64,000 bases of DNA from the NCBI RefSeq assembly GCF_023544445.1, contig NZ_JALPVJ010000004.1:310001-374000 (forward strand). Direction: 5' to 3'. Positions within the stretch are counted from its first letter, which is position 1. Every line of letters begins with the position of its first letter. Positions 54,478 through 60,774 of this stretch are shown piece by piece. This stretch comes from Actinoplanes sp. M2I2. GTDB taxonomy: Bacteria; Actinomycetota; Actinomycetes; Mycobacteriales; Micromonosporaceae. A model generated the notes under the pieces. That model had not been told where the DNA came from and did not search any database. It saw nothing but the letters and a program-made list of their open reading frames with translations. The translations under genes and the position numbers were made by a program.

Positions 54478-54497
54478 AGGTCTTCGAGCTTTACAGG
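54464..54497. repeat. Tandem 17-bp duplication spanning two convergent stop codons
   Basis: TCTTCGAGCTTTAGAGG (54464-54480) and TCTTCGAGCTTTACAGG (54481-54497) differ by one base. The first copy holds the TAG of the HAD gene. The second holds the TAA of bpa on the other strand and part of its C-terminal codons. Confidence 0.85.
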
Positions 54498-55060
54498 TAC
54501 TGCCCGGTGCGGCCGTCGCCGGCGTCGCGCGGGCCGGGCTGACCGGGCATGCCGGGCAGCGCACCCATCGGCAGGGCGGGCCGCCCCTGGCCGCCGCGCA
54601 TCTGCTCGAGCTGCAGCCGGGCCGCCATCTGCTGAGCCACCAGCGCGGCCTGGATGCCGTGGAAGAGACCCTCGAGCCAGCCGACCAGCTGGGCCTGGGC
54701 GATGCGCAGCTCGGCCTCGCTGGGCGGGGTCTCACCCTCGAACGGCAGGGACAGGCGCTCCAGCTCGTCGCGCAGCTCGGGCGCCAGGCCGTCCTCGAGC
54801 TCGGTGATCGACCGCTGGTGGATCTCCCGCAGCCGGCCCCGGCTGGCCTCGTCGAGCGGTGCGGCCCGGACCTCCTCGAGCAGCTGCTTGATCATGCTGC
54901 CGATGCGCATGACCTTGGCCGGTTGCTCGATCAGATTGCCGGGTTCCTCGGGGTTGACCGTCCCGTCGGCTTCCATGGTTCCGAGCGGACGCCCGTCCGG
55001 GCCGACCACGATCACGGAACCGTCGTCGGGCTTCTCCACGGGGTGTTGTTCGTCGGTCAT
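54491..55060 (-). CDS. bpa: Bacterial proteasome activator Bpa
   Basis: The 189-residue protein matches mycobacterial Bpa (Rv3780): EQPAKVMRIGSMIKQLLEEVRAAPLDEASR, ELEDGLAPELRDELERLSLPF and ELRIAQAQLVGWLEGLFHGIQAAL. The C-terminal tail GRTGQYL docks in the 20S proteasome pockets. Bpa forms a ring that opens the proteasome gate without ATP and lets in unfolded proteins. ATG 55060 is used. ATG 55069 is the alternative. It implies a 20S proteasome elsewhere in the genome. It shares RTGxYL with the YbjN-like protein at 58550. Confidence 0.94.
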   Translation of the reverse strand: MTDEQHPVEKPDDGSVIVVGPDGRPLGTMEADGTVNPEEPGNLIEQPAKVMRIGSMIKQLLEEVRAAPLDEASRGRLREIHQRSITELEDGLAPELRDELERLSLPFEGETPPSEAELRIAQAQLVGWLEGLFHGIQAALVAQQMAARLQLEQMRGGQGRPALPMGALPGMPGQPGPRDAGDGRTGQYL

Positions 55061-55129
55061 GTGCTCCATCTTCCCGCACGGCCTCCGGTCATCCGCCAGC
55101 ACCCATGGTTTGTTTCACGGTGTCCACGA

Positions 55130-55957
55130 TCACTGCCGGAGCTCGGCCACCACGCACTTCACACTGCCGCCGCCCCGCTTGAGCTCGGAGAGGTCCACGT
55201 GCACGGGCTGGTAGCCGGCCGCTCGGACCTTGTCGCCCATCGCCGTCGCCTCGGTGTTGAGGACCACGTGGCGGCCGTCGCTGACCAGGTTGAGCCCGAA
55301 CGCCTCGGCGTCGGCCCGGTCGGCCAGCACGGCGTCCGGGAACAACTGGGCGAGCACCCGCTGGGACGCCGGCGAGAAGGCGCCGGGGTAGTAGGTGACG
55401 TGCCGGTCGTCGAGGACGGCGAGCGCGGTGTCCAGGTGGTAGAAGGCCGGATCGACCAGCCTCAGCGAGACCACCGGGCGGCCGATCACCTCCTGGGCCT
55501 CGGCGTGCGCGGCCGGGTCGGTGCGGAAGCCGTAGCCGGCCAGGACCAGGCCCCCGTACGCCCCGGGCAGGTACGCGAAGTCGCCTTCGCCCTCGTTGAC
55601 GTGCACCGGCCCGGCGAACGTCCAACCCTGGCCGGCGTAGAACTCACGATGCGCGTCGGCCTCGGCCCCCCGCTGCGGGAACCGGAAGCGGGCGCCGTAG
55701 ACCACGCCGTCCACCGAGAACGCGCCGTTGGCCGCGTAGACCATGTCGGGCAGGCCGGCGACCGGGTCGAGCAGGTGCACCCGGTGGCCGAGGTCGCCGA
55801 GCGTGTCGCGGAGCATCTCCCATTGCTTGAGGGCCAGCGCGGCGTCGACCGGGACGGTCGTGTCCATCCACGGGTTGATGGCGTACTCGACCGTGAAATG
55901 CTGCGGAGGGCACATGAGATATGTCCGGTTCCGCGGCTGGCGCTGCGTGTGGTTCAT
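55130..55957 (-). CDS. ddaH: Dimethylarginine dimethylaminohydrolase-like pentein enzyme
   Basis: The 275-residue pentein protein has HFTVEYAINPWMD, VYAANGAFSVDG, NEGEGDFAYLP, the catalytic His in FYHLDTALAVLDDR, and the nucleophilic Cys near the end in GGSVKCVVAEL. DDAH enzymes convert dimethylarginine to citrulline. Relatives act on ornithine or arginine-like substrates. TACGCT (55965-55970, minus) lies 7 nt from the ATG. The divergent Lrp-type regulator is the natural controller. The symbol is by family and the substrate is not proven. Confidence 0.85.
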   Translation of the reverse strand: MNHTQRQPRNRTYLMCPPQHFTVEYAINPWMDTTVPVDAALALKQWEMLRDTLGDLGHRVHLLDPVAGLPDMVYAANGAFSVDGVVYGARFRFPQRGAEADAHREFYAGQGWTFAGPVHVNEGEGDFAYLPGAYGGLVLAGYGFRTDPAAHAEAQEVIGRPVVSLRLVDPAFYHLDTALAVLDDRHVTYYPGAFSPASQRVLAQLFPDAVLADRADAEAFGLNLVSDGRHVVLNTEATAMGDKVRAAGYQPVHVDLSELKRGGGSVKCVVAELRQ

Positions 55958-55964
55958 GAGCTAG

Positions 55965-55979
55965 AGCGTAGGTAGGCTG
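55965..55979. promoter_or_regulatory. Divergent promoters of ddaH (-) and the Lrp gene (+)
   Basis: TACGCT on the minus strand (55965-55970) is 7 nt from the ddaH ATG. TAGGCT on the plus strand (55974-55979) lies 45 bases before the Lrp start. The two hexamers are 3 bases apart and face away from each other. Confidence 0.5.
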
Positions 55980-56024
55980 CGATGCACGAAACAGCCAGAA
56001 ATCTTGTCCGTTGGGGGCGAATCG

Positions 56025-56495
56025 TTGCAACTGGACGCCGTAGATCAGCGAATCATTGCGTTGCTCATGGCCGACGCGCGATCGTCGTACGCCGAGATCG
56101 GCGCGCGGGTGTCCCTCTCGGCGCCCGCGGTCAAGCGACGGGTCGACCGGCTTCGATCCCGCGGCGTGATCAAAGGTTTCACCACGGTCGTCGAGCCGTC
56201 GGCCGTGGGCTGGACGACCGAGGCGTTCGTCGAGCTGTTCTGTACGGGCCGGACCACCCCGGCCCAGATCACCGTGGCCACCCGGCGGCATCCCGAGGTC
56301 GTGGGGGCGTACACGGTGTCGGGTGAGGCCGACGCCCTGGTGCACCTGCGAGCAGCCGACATCGGTCACCTGGAGCAGGTGCTGGAACGGCTGCGCGCCG
56401 AGCCGTTCGTCACCTCGACCCGCAGCATGATTGTTCTTTCCCGGCTGGTCGAGACGCCCACCCCCGTTCCGGCCCCGGAGTTCCCAGCTCGGTAA
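56025..56495 (+). CDS. Lrp/AsnC-family regulator
   Basis: The 156-residue protein has an N-terminal helix-turn-helix (LDAVDQRIIALLMADARSSY, then EIGARVSLSAPAVKRRVDRL). A RAM/ACT-like ligand domain follows (HPEVVGAYTVSGEADALVHLRA). TTG 56025 is the best start because GGGGG lies about 7 nt upstream and Lrp proteins begin just before this LD. TTG 56004 is possible. It is divergent from ddaH and probably controls it in response to arginine or a related amino acid. Confidence 0.88.
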   Translation: MQLDAVDQRIIALLMADARSSYAEIGARVSLSAPAVKRRVDRLRSRGVIKGFTTVVEPSAVGWTTEAFVELFCTGRTTPAQITVATRRHPEVVGAYTVSGEADALVHLRAADIGHLEQVLERLRAEPFVTSTRSMIVLSRLVETPTPVPAPEFPAR

Positions 56496-56594
56496 CTACC
56501 GGCCCAGTAATTTCCAGCTGTTCCCCGGCTCGGGAGTTCGCGGCTCCGGGGTGACGCCGGGAACCCCTTCGTCGATGGGCGCGTCCAACCCGTC

Positions 56595-58466
56595 ATGTCG
56601 CGTCGATCCTGGCTCCTGACCGTGCTGGCCGTCCTGCCGCTGGCCGGTTGCACCGCGTCCGCGCCGTCCACCGGATCACCGTCCACCGGGTCCTCATCCA
56701 CCGGGTCCTCGCCGGTCGCCGCCCCGGCGCTCAAGCTCGTCGCCTTCGACTCCTGTGATCAGCTGGGGAAGGAACTGCGGGCCGCGGCCGAGCGAAGCCA
56801 CGTCGCGGCTCTCTCGCTCCCGGGCGCCGGGCGCCGGCTGACCGCCGAATCGACGCCGGAGCGCGCGGCGGCCGCCGGCGGCGCGCCGTCGGCCTCGTCC
56901 TCGACCAACGTGCACGAGGCCGGGATCGACGAGCCCGACATCGTGAAGACCGACGGGCGGCGCATCCTCGCCATCTCGGGCGGCGTGCTGCGCGTGATCG
57001 ACACCGCCACCCGCCGCCAGACCGGTCGGCTCGATCTCGGCCTGGAAGCGGTCGACGAGGCGAAGCTGCTGATGGCCGGCGACCACGCGCTGGTGCTGGC
57101 CGACGGCGGTCACCGCTCTCCGTTGCGCGACGACACCCGGATGATCCGGCCCGGGAACGGCCGCTCCGAGGTGTTGCTCGTCGACCTCTCGAGCGGGACG
57201 CCCCGGCTGCTCAGCCGCTATCGCGGTGACGGCCGGCTGGTCGACGCCCGGCAGCACGGCACCGTGGCACGCATCGTGATCAGCAGCAGCCCCGATCTCG
57301 AACTGCCGTACCGCGGCGAGCCCGAACCCGAGAAAGCCAAACAAGACGACCGGGACGCCATCGCCACCGCGCCGATCGAAGCGTGGCTGCCGGACTGGGA
57401 GATCACCACCGGCGCCACGACGGCCAAGGGTCGGCTCGACTGCGCGGCGGTGAGCCGGCCGGAGTCCTTCTCGGGCCTGTCGATGCTGCGGGTGCTGTCC
57501 TTCGACGTCGGCGCGGCCGTGCTCGGCGACGGCGATCCGGTCGCGGTGGTCGCCGACGGGGACGCCGTCTACGGCAGCGCGGACAGTCTCTTCGTCGCGA
57601 ACAACCAGAGCTGGCGGATGACGATCACCGCCACCGACACCGGCCAGGTCGCACGCCCGGACGGCACCGACATCTACCGGTTCCGTCTGCCGCCGACCGG
57701 CCGGCCGGTCCACGTGGCGTCGGGCAAGGTGCCGGGCCGGCTGCTCAACCAGTACTCGATGTCCGAGTGGGACGGTCACCTGCGCGTGGCCACGACCAGC
57801 TGGCAGGACGACGCCTCGGCGGTGCGGGTGCTGCGGGAGAAGGACGGGGCGCTGGTCGAGGTCGGCGCGGCCGAAGGACTCGGCCGGGGTGAGCGCATCT
57901 ACTCCGTACGGTTCCTCGGGCCTCGCGCCTATGTGGTGACCTTCCGCCAGACCGACCCGCTCTACAGCCTCGACCTCGCCGTGCCGGAGAAGCCGCGGGT
58001 GACCGGCGAGCTGAAGATCAACGGTTACTCGTCCCACCTGCAACCGGTCGGCGACGACAGACTGATCGGCATCGGCCAGGAAGCGACCGATGCCGGGGTT
58101 CCGACCGGCACGCAGATCTCCCTCTTCGACGTCGGCGACCCGGCCGCGCCGAAGCGCCTCGACCAGCATGTCGTGGCGGGCGGCGCGTCGGAGGCCGAGT
58201 CCGACCCGCACGCCCTCCTCTGGTGGCCGGCGACCGGTCTGCTGGTGCTGCCGATCGCGGACGCCAAGACCGACGGCGTGCTGGCCCTGCGGGTGACCGG
58301 CGACCGGCTCGAGCGGGCCACCCGGCTGGCCCCGCCGACCAGGGACGCCGGGCCGATGCGCCGGGCCGTGCTGGTCGGCGACGTGCTGTGGTCGATCAAC
58401 GAGCGCGGTCTGCTCGCCTCGAACGCGTCCACCCTGGACCGGCTCGCCTGGGTCGCCCTGACCTGA
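56595..58466 (+). CDS. Beta-propeller lipoprotein (Beta_propel family)
   Basis: The 623-residue protein has a lipoprotein signal (LAVLPLAGC, Cys at 19). A short linker carries three STGS-type repeats made of near-identical 15-base units (about 56665-56710). A beta-propeller domain follows, with STNVHEAGIDEPDIVKTDGRRILAI, YSVRFLGPRAYVVTF, TDPLYSLDL and DPHALLWWPATGLLVLPI. It is exposed outside the membrane. The function is unknown. Similar proteins have been annotated as copper-amine-oxidase-like or secreted propellers. No clear ribosome binding site was seen. Confidence 0.87.
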   Translation: MSRRSWLLTVLAVLPLAGCTASAPSTGSPSTGSSSTGSSPVAAPALKLVAFDSCDQLGKELRAAAERSHVAALSLPGAGRRLTAESTPERAAAAGGAPSASSSTNVHEAGIDEPDIVKTDGRRILAISGGVLRVIDTATRRQTGRLDLGLEAVDEAKLLMAGDHALVLADGGHRSPLRDDTRMIRPGNGRSEVLLVDLSSGTPRLLSRYRGDGRLVDARQHGTVARIVISSSPDLELPYRGEPEPEKAKQDDRDAIATAPIEAWLPDWEITTGATTAKGRLDCAAVSRPESFSGLSMLRVLSFDVGAAVLGDGDPVAVVADGDAVYGSADSLFVANNQSWRMTITATDTGQVARPDGTDIYRFRLPPTGRPVHVASGKVPGRLLNQYSMSEWDGHLRVATTSWQDDASAVRVLREKDGALVEVGAAEGLGRGERIYSVRFLGPRAYVVTFRQTDPLYSLDLAVPEKPRVTGELKINGYSSHLQPVGDDRLIGIGQEATDAGVPTGTQISLFDVGDPAAPKRLDQHVVAGGASEAESDPHALLWWPATGLLVLPIADAKTDGVLALRVTGDRLERATRLAPPTRDAGPMRRAVLVGDVLWSINERGLLASNASTLDRLAWVALT

Positions 58467-58481
58467 GCGACCCCCCGATAC

Positions 58482-58539
58482 CAGGGCTTGTCCTGCCCGG
58501 CCCGCACTCAGCCCCGCGTGGCCGGCAGGGCAAGCCCTG
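58482..58539. terminator. Long bidirectional hairpin
   Basis: A stem of about 20 bp is formed by 58482-58502 and 58520-58539, with one bulged C and one wobble. The right arm alone can also fold (GGCAGGGC-AA-GCCCTGCC-like). It separates two convergent genes. Confidence 0.8.
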
Positions 58540-58549
58540 CCGGGCTCGC

Positions 58550-59638
58550 CTACAGATACATCCCCGTGCGGTGGTCGTCGGTCGGCTCCTTGGCCGGGGC
58601 CGGCTTGTCGCCCTCACCGAAGAAGCGCTTGCCGCCGAACTCGCCGTGCAGCCGGTCGTCGAGCTCGTCGGCCAGGCCGGTCATGACCTGCACGGCCAGC
58701 ATCAGGTGGGTCGCCTGGAAGTTGCGACCGAACACCGGGATGGACGCCCACACCGTGTCCTGCGCGCAGTAGAGCCGGCCGATCGGCATGCGATTGGTCA
58801 GCTCGGAGAGCTTCACGTAGAGCAGCTCGGTCGGCTCGACCTCGGTCAGGATCGGCGAGAACACATCCACCAGCGGCGGGTTGTCGCGCACCCGCACGAA
58901 GACCATGGCCGACCCGGCCCGGATGCCGATGTCGCCGTCGGCGTCCACCTGCAGCTGGTCGACCGTGGTCTTGGACATCGTGGCGACCACCGTGCGGACC
59001 CGCTCGTCCAGCGGGACCACCTCGTCGGCCGCGTCGGCCAGCGCGGCCGCCAGCACACCGTCCTCGGCCAGGTCGTCGAGGCTCAGCTCGTCGTCGATGC
59101 TGGGCTCGTGCCGGGCGGTGGCCAGCGGCACGGTGTCGATGGGCTCGTCGTTCTCGTCGTGCACCAGGTAGACGAGGAACGCCGGATGCGGCGCGCCGTA
59201 GACGTCGCGCAGCGTGCGGGCCACCACGGTGGCGAGCCGGTTGGAGTTGTCCTGAGTGGAGCTGAGGCCGAACGAATCGCCCGAGCCCGCCAGCACGCCC
59301 GGCGGTGACCAGCCGAGCGCCACCAGATCGGCGATCGAGGCCCGATCCATCCGATAGCCCTCGGGCAGGCCCGCGTTGCCGATCGCCAGGGCCTCGACCA
59401 CACCGCCCTCCCGCACCCGCATGCTCACCGAGTAGACGGCGGTGCCGGTGCCGGACGCCGTCGGATCGAGTGTCAGATCGACGTGCGCCCCCGCGGCGAG
59501 CGTCGGAAGCAGGCCGGACAGCGCCCGCGCGAACTCCCGCCAGGCCTCGCCGACCTTCGCCCTCAAGTCGGCCGTGGTGGGCTCGTCGAGGAGCACACCG
59601 TCGGTGGATTCGCCGCCCTCGGCGCTCTGTGCCGTCAT
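58550..59638 (-). CDS. YbjN-like (TY-Chap) chaperone with proteasome-docking-type C-terminus
   Basis: The 362-residue protein has two parts. The N-terminal half (REFARALSGLLPTLAAGAHVDLTLDP, MRVREGGVVEALAIGN) carries a variable domain. The second half (DGDIGIRAGSAMVFVRVRD, LVDVFSPILTEVEPTELLYVKLSELTN, VFGRNFQATHLMLAVQVMTG) is the YbjN/T3SS-chaperone-like fold predicted to bind peptides. A charged, flexible tail ends in HRTGMYL. Met-Tyr-Leu fits the HbYX rule for 20S proteasome activators and matches the Bpa end RTGQYL 3.5 kb away. ATG 59638 has GGAGG upstream. The docking role is inference. Confidence 0.82.
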   Translation of the reverse strand: MTAQSAEGGESTDGVLLDEPTTADLRAKVGEAWREFARALSGLLPTLAAGAHVDLTLDPTASGTGTAVYSVSMRVREGGVVEALAIGNAGLPEGYRMDRASIADLVALGWSPPGVLAGSGDSFGLSSTQDNSNRLATVVARTLRDVYGAPHPAFLVYLVHDENDEPIDTVPLATARHEPSIDDELSLDDLAEDGVLAAALADAADEVVPLDERVRTVVATMSKTTVDQLQVDADGDIGIRAGSAMVFVRVRDNPPLVDVFSPILTEVEPTELLYVKLSELTNRMPIGRLYCAQDTVWASIPVFGRNFQATHLMLAVQVMTGLADELDDRLHGEFGGKRFFGEGDKPAPAKEPTDDHRTGMYL

Positions 59639-59696: not shown

Positions 59697-60005
59697 TCAG
59701 GGGATGGGCTGTTCTCCGTCGCCCTCGAGGCCCCCACCGGACGCGGCCGGCGGGGGCGCGGCGGCGGGAGGTGACCAGGCCCGGGCCAGGTCGCTGAGCC
59801 GGTCGGCCAGCTCGGAAGGGTCGGCGCCGCGGCCCACGGCCAGCCCGAGAAGGTAGGCCGTCACGGGAGCTCCCGGCCGCACCACCCCGTGGGCCACGTC
59901 GCGGGCCAGGTCGAGCACCAGCCGGGTCGGGATGTCACCCGGATCGACTCCGGCCTCCCGGCCGGCCGCGGCGACCCAGGCGTCGAGCTCGTTCACCACG
60001 TCCAC
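59697..60005 (-). CDS. DUF6457-family protein, MobA companion
   Basis: The 102-residue protein begins MDVVNELDAWVAAAGREAGVD and contains VLDLARDVAHGVVRPGAPVTAYLLGLAVG, then a Pro/Ala-rich tail. DUF6457 proteins lie beside or are fused to MobA in many actinomycetes, so a part in molybdenum cofactor handling is likely but untested. GTG 60005 is used. MobA is 44 bases upstream on the same strand. No ribosome binding site stands out. Confidence 0.72.
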   Translation of the reverse strand: MDVVNELDAWVAAAGREAGVDPGDIPTRLVLDLARDVAHGVVRPGAPVTAYLLGLAVGRGADPSELADRLSDLARAWSPPAAAPPPAASGGGLEGDGEQPIP

Positions 60006-60048: not shown

Positions 60049-60648
60049 TCACCGGGCCCACTCCTCGGCGGTGCGCAGGTCGTCGTCGGTGTCGCAGTCG
60101 AACCAGGGCGGCGGTCCGGCGCGCCGCCAGGACACCTCGGCCACCCGCAGATGGTTCATCAGCTCCCGCACCGAGGCGCCGTCGAGGTTGCCCCGGGCCT
60201 CGGCCAATTGCTCGATCGCGGCCCGCAGCGCGGCCGTCCGCCAGACGCCGCAGAGCATCTGCCGCCGGCCCTCGGCGTCGCGGTAGACCGCGCCCTGCAT
60301 CGGCGCCGACTCGGCGGTCAGGCGCAGCACGTCGATCGCCTCGCCGGTGAGCAGGGGCAGGTCGGCGGCCAGCAGAGCCGTGTAGGTCACGTCCGTGGGC
60401 ACCAGGGCCAGCCCCGCCGCGGTGGCCGCCACCGGGCCGCTGCCGGGCGGGTCCTCGCGGGTGGAGTGCACCTGGACGGGCAGGTCGGGGGGCACCCGGC
60501 CGACGACGATGCGCGGGTCGGCGTCGTGCACCGCGGCCAGCACCCGGGTCAGCATGGATTGCCCGGCCACGGTCAGGGTCGGCTTGTCCGCACCGCCCAT
60601 TCGCCGCGCAGCTCCGCCGGCCAGCACCACCGCCGCATATCCCCCCAC
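60049..60648 (-). CDS. mobA: Molybdenum cofactor guanylyltransferase
   Basis: The 199-residue protein has the MobA signature [21 protein letters not shown] (in parts) at the N-terminus. [19 protein letters not shown] and [17 protein letters not shown] provide GTP and Mg2+ binding. It attaches GMP to molybdopterin to make the bis-MGD cofactor. GTG 60648 lies 6 nt from TACGGT (60655-60660, minus) and gives the natural start [12 protein letters not shown]. It is divergent from fdhD and followed by DUF6457. Confidence 0.9.
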
Positions 60649-60654
60649 GTACGT

Positions 60655-60660
60655 ACCGTA
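60655..60660 (-). promoter_or_regulatory. -10 element for mobA
   Basis: TACGGT on the minus strand lies 6 nt before GTG 60648. Confidence 0.5.
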
Positions 60661-60774
60661 TCCCGGCCGCGTGTCGGGCGTGACCGCGCGCTCAGTTACC
60701 AGTCGTGGATCACTTCGTGTCCCGGTGGTATCGCGCCGCCCCTCCCGTGCCGAGCCGGATGCCGCCGACCGGCC

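Follow-up and report, generated by a model that had tools for sequence, protein, structure and literature searches.

Genes at the locus

The 64,000-nucleotide stretch of the Actinoplanes sp. M2I2 genome analysed here (contig NZ_JALPVJ010000004.1, positions 310,001 to 374,000; hereafter the window) carries on its reverse strand the gene for the bacterial proteasome activator Bpa and a gene for a chaperone-like protein of 362 amino acids (aa) with a related C-terminal tail (Table 1). An initial annotation had described the latter as a YbjN-like protein sharing an RTGxYL tail with Bpa. Translation confirmed the tail in both, the C-terminus of the chaperone-like protein reading ...EPTDDHRTGMYL and that of Bpa ...GDGRTGQYL.

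The YbjN likeness was borne out by Pfam, which assigned a TY-Chap3 domain (84 bits) and a TY-Chap1 domain (147.5 bits; cut-off 27), the TY-Chap1 half having the YbjN/type III secretion chaperone fold. No match to the BPA domain (PF10759) was found in this TY-Chap protein by Pfam at E up to 0.1, and NCBIfam gave no match. When PDB sequences were searched the sole credible match was 2plg (E 7e-5). In a separate search, no PAC-type fold was present among the 50 matches listed, which barely covered the TY-Chap3 half. Plasmids gave a single distant match (24 %).

In the structure model, residues 335–362 had predicted local distance difference test (pLDDT) values below 50, which places the tail on a predicted flexible, exposed segment. 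The spacing between the FGGxRFF motif and the last four residues was 12–21 aa across orthologs, a lone value of 381 being a pattern artefact. Both results agree with the flexible charged linker proposed in the initial annotation.

Table 1. Coordinates of the features, given as positions in the window unless a genome locus is named
Feature	Coordinates	Strand	Basis or remark
TY-Chap3–TY-Chap1 chaperone-like protein, 362 aa	58550..59638	-	Translation, Pfam, orthologs
TY-Chap3 domain, residues 31–155	59174..59548	-	Pfam PF22552, E 1.7e-23
TY-Chap1 domain, residues 210–341, YbjN/type III chaperone fold	58616..59011	-	Pfam, E 2.2e-43
Linker, residues 342–355, variable, charged, predicted disordered	58574..58615	-	pLDDT, ortholog lengths
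C-terminal tail HRTGMYL of the chaperone-like protein	58553..58573	-	G359, Y361, L362 invariant in alignment A1
Bpa (bacterial proteasome activator), C-terminus GRTGQYL	54491..55060	-	Translation; Pfam PF10759, E 1.6e-73
GQYL docking motif of Bpa	54494..54505	-	Translation
DUF6457 gene, next gene upstream of the chaperone gene, 58 bp away	59697..60005	-	Pfam
MobA-like nucleotidyltransferase, upstream of DUF6457	60049..60711 (60711 is the end of the scanned stretch)	-	Pfam PF12804
DUF5925-AAA+ protein, own genome	G000:C11:122820 (L401:7690-8835)	+	Ends PSTGMYL; other loci L373, L377, L378, L380
Cpn10-like protein, own genome	G000:C26:42047 (L402:5724-6062)	+	Other loci L375, L379, L381-L384

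Conservation of the tail among orthologs

The full-length TY-Chap3–TY-Chap1 protein was present in 53 of 61 genomes of the same family, and all 53 proteins ended in G[MQ]YL (47 GMYL, 6 GQYL). A sample of 298 genomes of the order supplied a second family, f76, in which all five proteins ended in ERTGMYL, and a further 30 loci; together with 80 named loci, the best 80 of 208 relatives, these 30 gave 108 GMYL and 2 GMYI ends. The ortholog alignment suggested in the initial annotation thus yielded an invariant tail, with G[MQ]Y[LI] closing 167 of 167 pooled full-length rows (159 GMYL, 6 GQYL and 2 GMYI; duplicate locus L129 removed, other overlaps kept, 131 distinct post-core strings).

The codons for the G, Y and L of the tail differed synonymously between orthologs. 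Within the 36-row alignment A1, all three residues were invariant despite a gap-rich linker just before them. Six genomes also encode a TY-Chap1 paralog alongside the tailed protein; in these paralogs (L055-L060; two weaker matches, L061 and L062, were excluded) the C-terminus is a long extension with no YL tail.

Specificity of the tail within genomes

To count comparable tails, the 9.58 Mb DNA of the strain was scanned for G[QMKL]YL followed by a stop or Trp codon, with only CAG, ATG, AAG and CTG allowed at the second position. Six matches were found, and the four with a true stop all closed long reading frames, namely those of Bpa, Mpa, the TY-Chap protein and an AAA+ ATPase with a DUF5925 domain. 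About 1.6 proteins ending in any GxYL are expected from composition per proteome, so that a lone GxYL tail would not be significant; for G[QM]YL the expectation is about 0.07 per genome of this strain, and this estimate combined with the conservation rules out a chance origin of the chaperone tail. A second pattern, allowing any residue between G and Y and only TAA or TGA as stops, added a Cpn10-like protein ending in GLYL and one long-frame GSYL protein, plus matches in short or absent frames.

A scan of 56 genomes included 17 gene-bearing genomes of the family, and the counts use the 14 that were fully listed. These held 77 matches, 47 of them stop-terminated, and 42 of the 47 were Mpa, Bpa and the TY-Chap protein, one each per genome (28 Bpa and TY-Chap sites assigned by coordinates, 14 Mpa sites by sequence). 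The remaining five were a pair of DUF5925-AAA+ proteins, a pair of Cpn10-like proteins and a probable membrane protein. The last of these (L374, G006:C34:36235) has membrane-like stretches and the C-terminus ESVGMYL. Three of the five proteasome-less genomes in the scan had no match, G193 had only a Trp-ending match, and G319 had a stop-ended match in a 35-codon frame. The tail is thus nearly exclusive to Mpa, Bpa and the TY-Chap protein in the genomes scanned.

Predicted docking and mechanism

The genome encodes in one locus a Pup ligase, two proteasome subunits, Pup (ending in GGE), a second gene of the Pup-ligase family, which by its position is Dop, and Mpa. Its PrcA can be aligned with solved structures of alpha subunits from actinobacteria across the stretch containing the pocket lysine, which we take to be K52.

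It has been reported that pockets between alpha subunits are the binding site of the GQYL motif, that the pocket lysine is required and that the Q is dispensable; with the hexapeptide GTGQYL at 200 uM, the wild-type core degrades HspR almost as well as with Bpa (PMC6017811, PMC12288473, PMC10415612). From these findings the GMYL tail is expected to dock as well, and judged by its residues the MYL end conforms to the hydrophobic-Y-X (HbYX) rule. The invariance and near exclusivity of the tail and the full Pup-proteasome locus lend good support to the initial proposal that a chaperone fold here carries a docking tail, and it is highly probable that this tail docks on the alpha ring of the 20S proteasome.

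In the mechanism that we propose, TY-Chap3 and TY-Chap1 would form a soluble peptide-binding chaperone body that holds unfolded peptide, tethered to the C-terminal G[M/Q]YL by a flexible arm of about 12–21 residues. The motif would insert between 20S alpha subunits, in the same pocket as Mpa and Bpa, and held peptides would be handed, without ATP, to a gate opened with the help of the chaperone's tail. Useful affinity would require joint docking by several copies or by an oligomer. Because it combines a chaperone fold with a flexible tether, an ATP-independent adaptor or activator at the 20S proteasome is the simplest reading of the TY-Chap protein, with a chance of being right that we place at even or slightly above.

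Co-occurrence with the proteasome

The proteasome was present in all 61 genomes of the family, which makes a within-family test of proteasome loss impossible; Bpa was found in 60, the genome without a match (G059) being 82 % complete. Across a phylum sample of 296 genomes, TY-Chap1 was found in 32. A GxYL or GYL tail was present on TY-Chap1 in 15 of these, all with a proteasome, and the five proteasome-less genomes with TY-Chap1 were all tailless (Fisher's p = 0.046, with kinship ignored and the tail definition set after seeing the ends). Ten of the 15 tailed genomes belong to a single family, f16.

Distant single-domain TY-Chap1 proteins had the C-termini GAYL, GGYL or (S/T/P)GYL. In f16, ten of the 11 genomes matching TY-Chap1 had a single-domain protein (loci L253-L266) ending in SGYL or TGYL, and the end in the eleventh, G335, was divergent or broken. 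A Bpa match was absent in six of the 11. At two f16 loci tested by Pfam (L262 and L264), a gene for an ArsA-like ATPase adjoins the single-domain TY-Chap1 gene. Outside the family of the strain, 21 Bpa tails were found (GQYL, GTYL, STYL, GAYL, GNYL, GHYL and GPGYI), and Mpa ended in GQYL in 13 of 13 proteins found (18 regions). Taken together, these ends share a terminal YL (or YI) as their core, of which G[MQ]YL is the version seen in the family of the strain. Another family of the same order, f2, had seven genomes with weak TY-Chap matches (E 1.6e-21 to 1.6e-5), none of them tailed.

Several observations weigh against an adaptor or activator role. The association expected in the initial annotation between the tail and retention of the proteasome was seen in the tailed and the proteasome-less genomes, but the contrast is weak because 12 of the 17 tailless genomes among the 32 also have a proteasome, and the f16 tails (SGYL, TGYL) are not strictly GxYL. 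Eight of the 61 family genomes had no match to the chaperone while all kept the proteasome, showing that the gene is dispensable. In the 56-genome scan, raw counts from a reversed-pattern control matched those of the pattern, and the specificity argument therefore rests on stops and reading frames. The nearest upstream genes, DUF6457 and the MobA-like gene, are not proteolysis genes and could hint at molybdoenzyme maturation. The mean pLDDT of the chaperone model was 58.8, and we infer peptide binding from the fold. Ring formation is not known for this chaperone, and with a single tail on each chain its binding may be weak unless the protein is oligomeric. Docking, gate opening and degradation are likewise steps that we infer for the TY-Chap protein.

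Comparison with known proteasome partners

The TY-Chap protein resembles Bpa/PafE in having no ATPase domain, a flexible stretch and a C-terminal GQYL-type motif, in occurring in the same genomes and in its nearby gene. Bpa, however, is a four-helix bundle in a twelve-membered ring (PMC10415612), whereas the chaperone is built of TY-chaperone domains. Cpa, the Cdc48-like protein of actinobacteria, is also a 20S interactor from this phylum but is an AAA+ protein without the penultimate-tyrosine motif, and it still binds when the last five residues are missing (PMC6017811). The TY-Chap1 and TY-Chap3 families of ADP-ribose (ADPr) conflict systems have the same Pfam domains and predicted peptide binding; in the available text of the paper describing them they belong to ADPr-linked systems, with no proteasome link or YL tail (PMC9503650). 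Mpa/ARC occurs in the same genomes and has a C-terminal GQYL, but Mpa is a hexameric AAA+ unfoldase recognizing Pup, whereas the TY-Chap protein has no ATPase domain.

Docking could instead serve assembly, capping or inhibition of the core rather than substrate delivery, making the protein a counterpart of Pba1–Pba2, archaeal PbaB or PI31. We consider this unlikely. Actinobacterial 20S proteasomes are known to assemble in vitro without helpers, which speaks against it. The alternative draws on the occupation of the alpha ring of 20S precursors by Pba1–Pba2 and on PI31, a 20S-binding inhibitor and assembly regulator (PMC11391049, PMC12148024); a flexible tail on a chaperone body would suit such a layout, and the dispensability of the gene would suit an auxiliary factor. 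Bpa gave no faster maturation (PMC4254994), which has no direct bearing on the TY-Chap protein. Archaeal PbaB fits both this alternative and an activator role, as an ATP-independent activator and chaperone whose tentacle-like C-terminal segments act on 20S (PMC3605417). PbaB is a PAC1/PAC2 homolog forming a homotetramer, and its likeness to the TY-Chap protein is one of layout, with no sequence relation shown; by analogy it may be regarded as a precedent outside the ring activators.

The shared tail also implies that the same pockets are contested, and the TY-Chap protein might compete with Mpa and Bpa for them as a regulator or help Mpa to engage 20S by exposing or positioning its GQYL tails. 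According to a 2025 review, further factors are apparently required before the GQYL of Mpa is exposed, and how activator docking is regulated is unknown (PMC12288473). However, this problem of Mpa was reported from mycobacteria, and no mycobacterial locus was present among the best 80 of the 208 relatives, no search aimed at mycobacteria having been made. A factor confined to the TY-Chap-bearing group would not solve that problem, and we regard this explanation as improbable.

Gene neighbourhood

Between positions 59697 and 61665 of the window, the DUF6457 and MobA-like genes lie on the strand of the chaperone gene and fdhD on the opposite strand, a row kept in most family loci. Of 85 loci, 83 had DUF6457 (in some cases not as the adjacent gene), 81 the MobA-like gene and 75 FdhD; in some loci with these genes, gaps of 2–6 kb precede the chaperone gene. 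The wider row, DUF4192-FdhD-MobA-DUF6457-TY-Chap-(propeller)-Lrp-DDAH-bpa, is syntenic. Among the 80 named loci, bpa lay within about 8 kb in 77, and the other three stop at contig ends; it was not found in the five f76 loci, which span 3.4–5 kb each. A special linkage of the chaperone gene to bpa was considered as evidence and rejected, since bpa belongs to the conserved row. As the whole row is syntenic, the neighbourhood says little about chaperone function.

The same synteny, which takes in the Lrp, DDAH-like and bpa genes, makes the neighbours little informative for a further explanation, that the tail has another role, for example in molybdoenzyme maturation with the adjoining genes, and resembles those of Bpa and Mpa by convergence. 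The frequency of DUF6457, MobA-like and FdhD genes would favour such a role, as would the varied ways in which YbjN-type proteins act. The near restriction of the tail to Mpa, Bpa and the TY-Chap protein argues against it, as does the M/Q swap, which is of the kind that the 20S literature allows. We consider another role very improbable.

Relation to the literature

In the literature searched, no description was found linking YbjN and the proteasome, either in actinobacteria or among the newer actinobacterial activators, in line with the initial annotation, which knew of no such chaperone. Among the matches listed, the term TY-Chap occurred only in the virus-conflict paper that names the domains (PMC9503650). 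In ProEnd, 982 HbYX proteins are counted for actinobacteria; neither YbjN nor GroES occurs in the available part of its text, and the ProEnd database may list the TY-Chap family by motif alone (PMC11475706). Bpa was found by Delley et al. through a tail scan of Mycobacterium tuberculosis proteins (PMC4254994), an approach that would miss a family confined to other actinobacteria. The actinobacterial proteasome partners listed in the 2025 review are Mpa, Bpa/PafE and Cpa (PMC12288473). Docking by such a tail is an established principle; its use by a TY-chaperone is new within the limits of these searches. If the adaptor reading is correct, the TY-Chap protein would add a new type of ATP-independent adaptor, one that couples the type III secretion/YbjN chaperone fold to 20S through the shared tail.

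Other proteins with the tail

A scan combining tail and conservation is able to list further candidate proteasome partners. The two groups described here were picked by their tails, so that tailless members would be missed, and they are leads rather than conservation results. The DUF5925-AAA+ ATPases, confirmed by Pfam in five genomes, end in STGMYL, NTGMYL, HIGQYL, HVGQYL and PVGQYL, and they occur also in three family genomes without a TY-Chap match (G011, G013 and G014). No paper on DUF5925 was found in the literature searched, and the protein is a candidate further proteasomal ATPase.

We tentatively suggest that in actinobacteria a larger guild of tail-docking chaperones with GxYL ends may serve 20S by several Pup-independent routes, comprising the TY-Chap protein as an ATP-free peptide holder, the DUF5925-AAA+ protein as a further unfoldase and the Cpn10-like protein, possibly another 20S partner. 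Pfam confirmed the Cpn10 (GroES-like) assignment of the latter proteins, which are about 112 aa long, come from seven genomes of two families and end in TGLYL or SGLYL.
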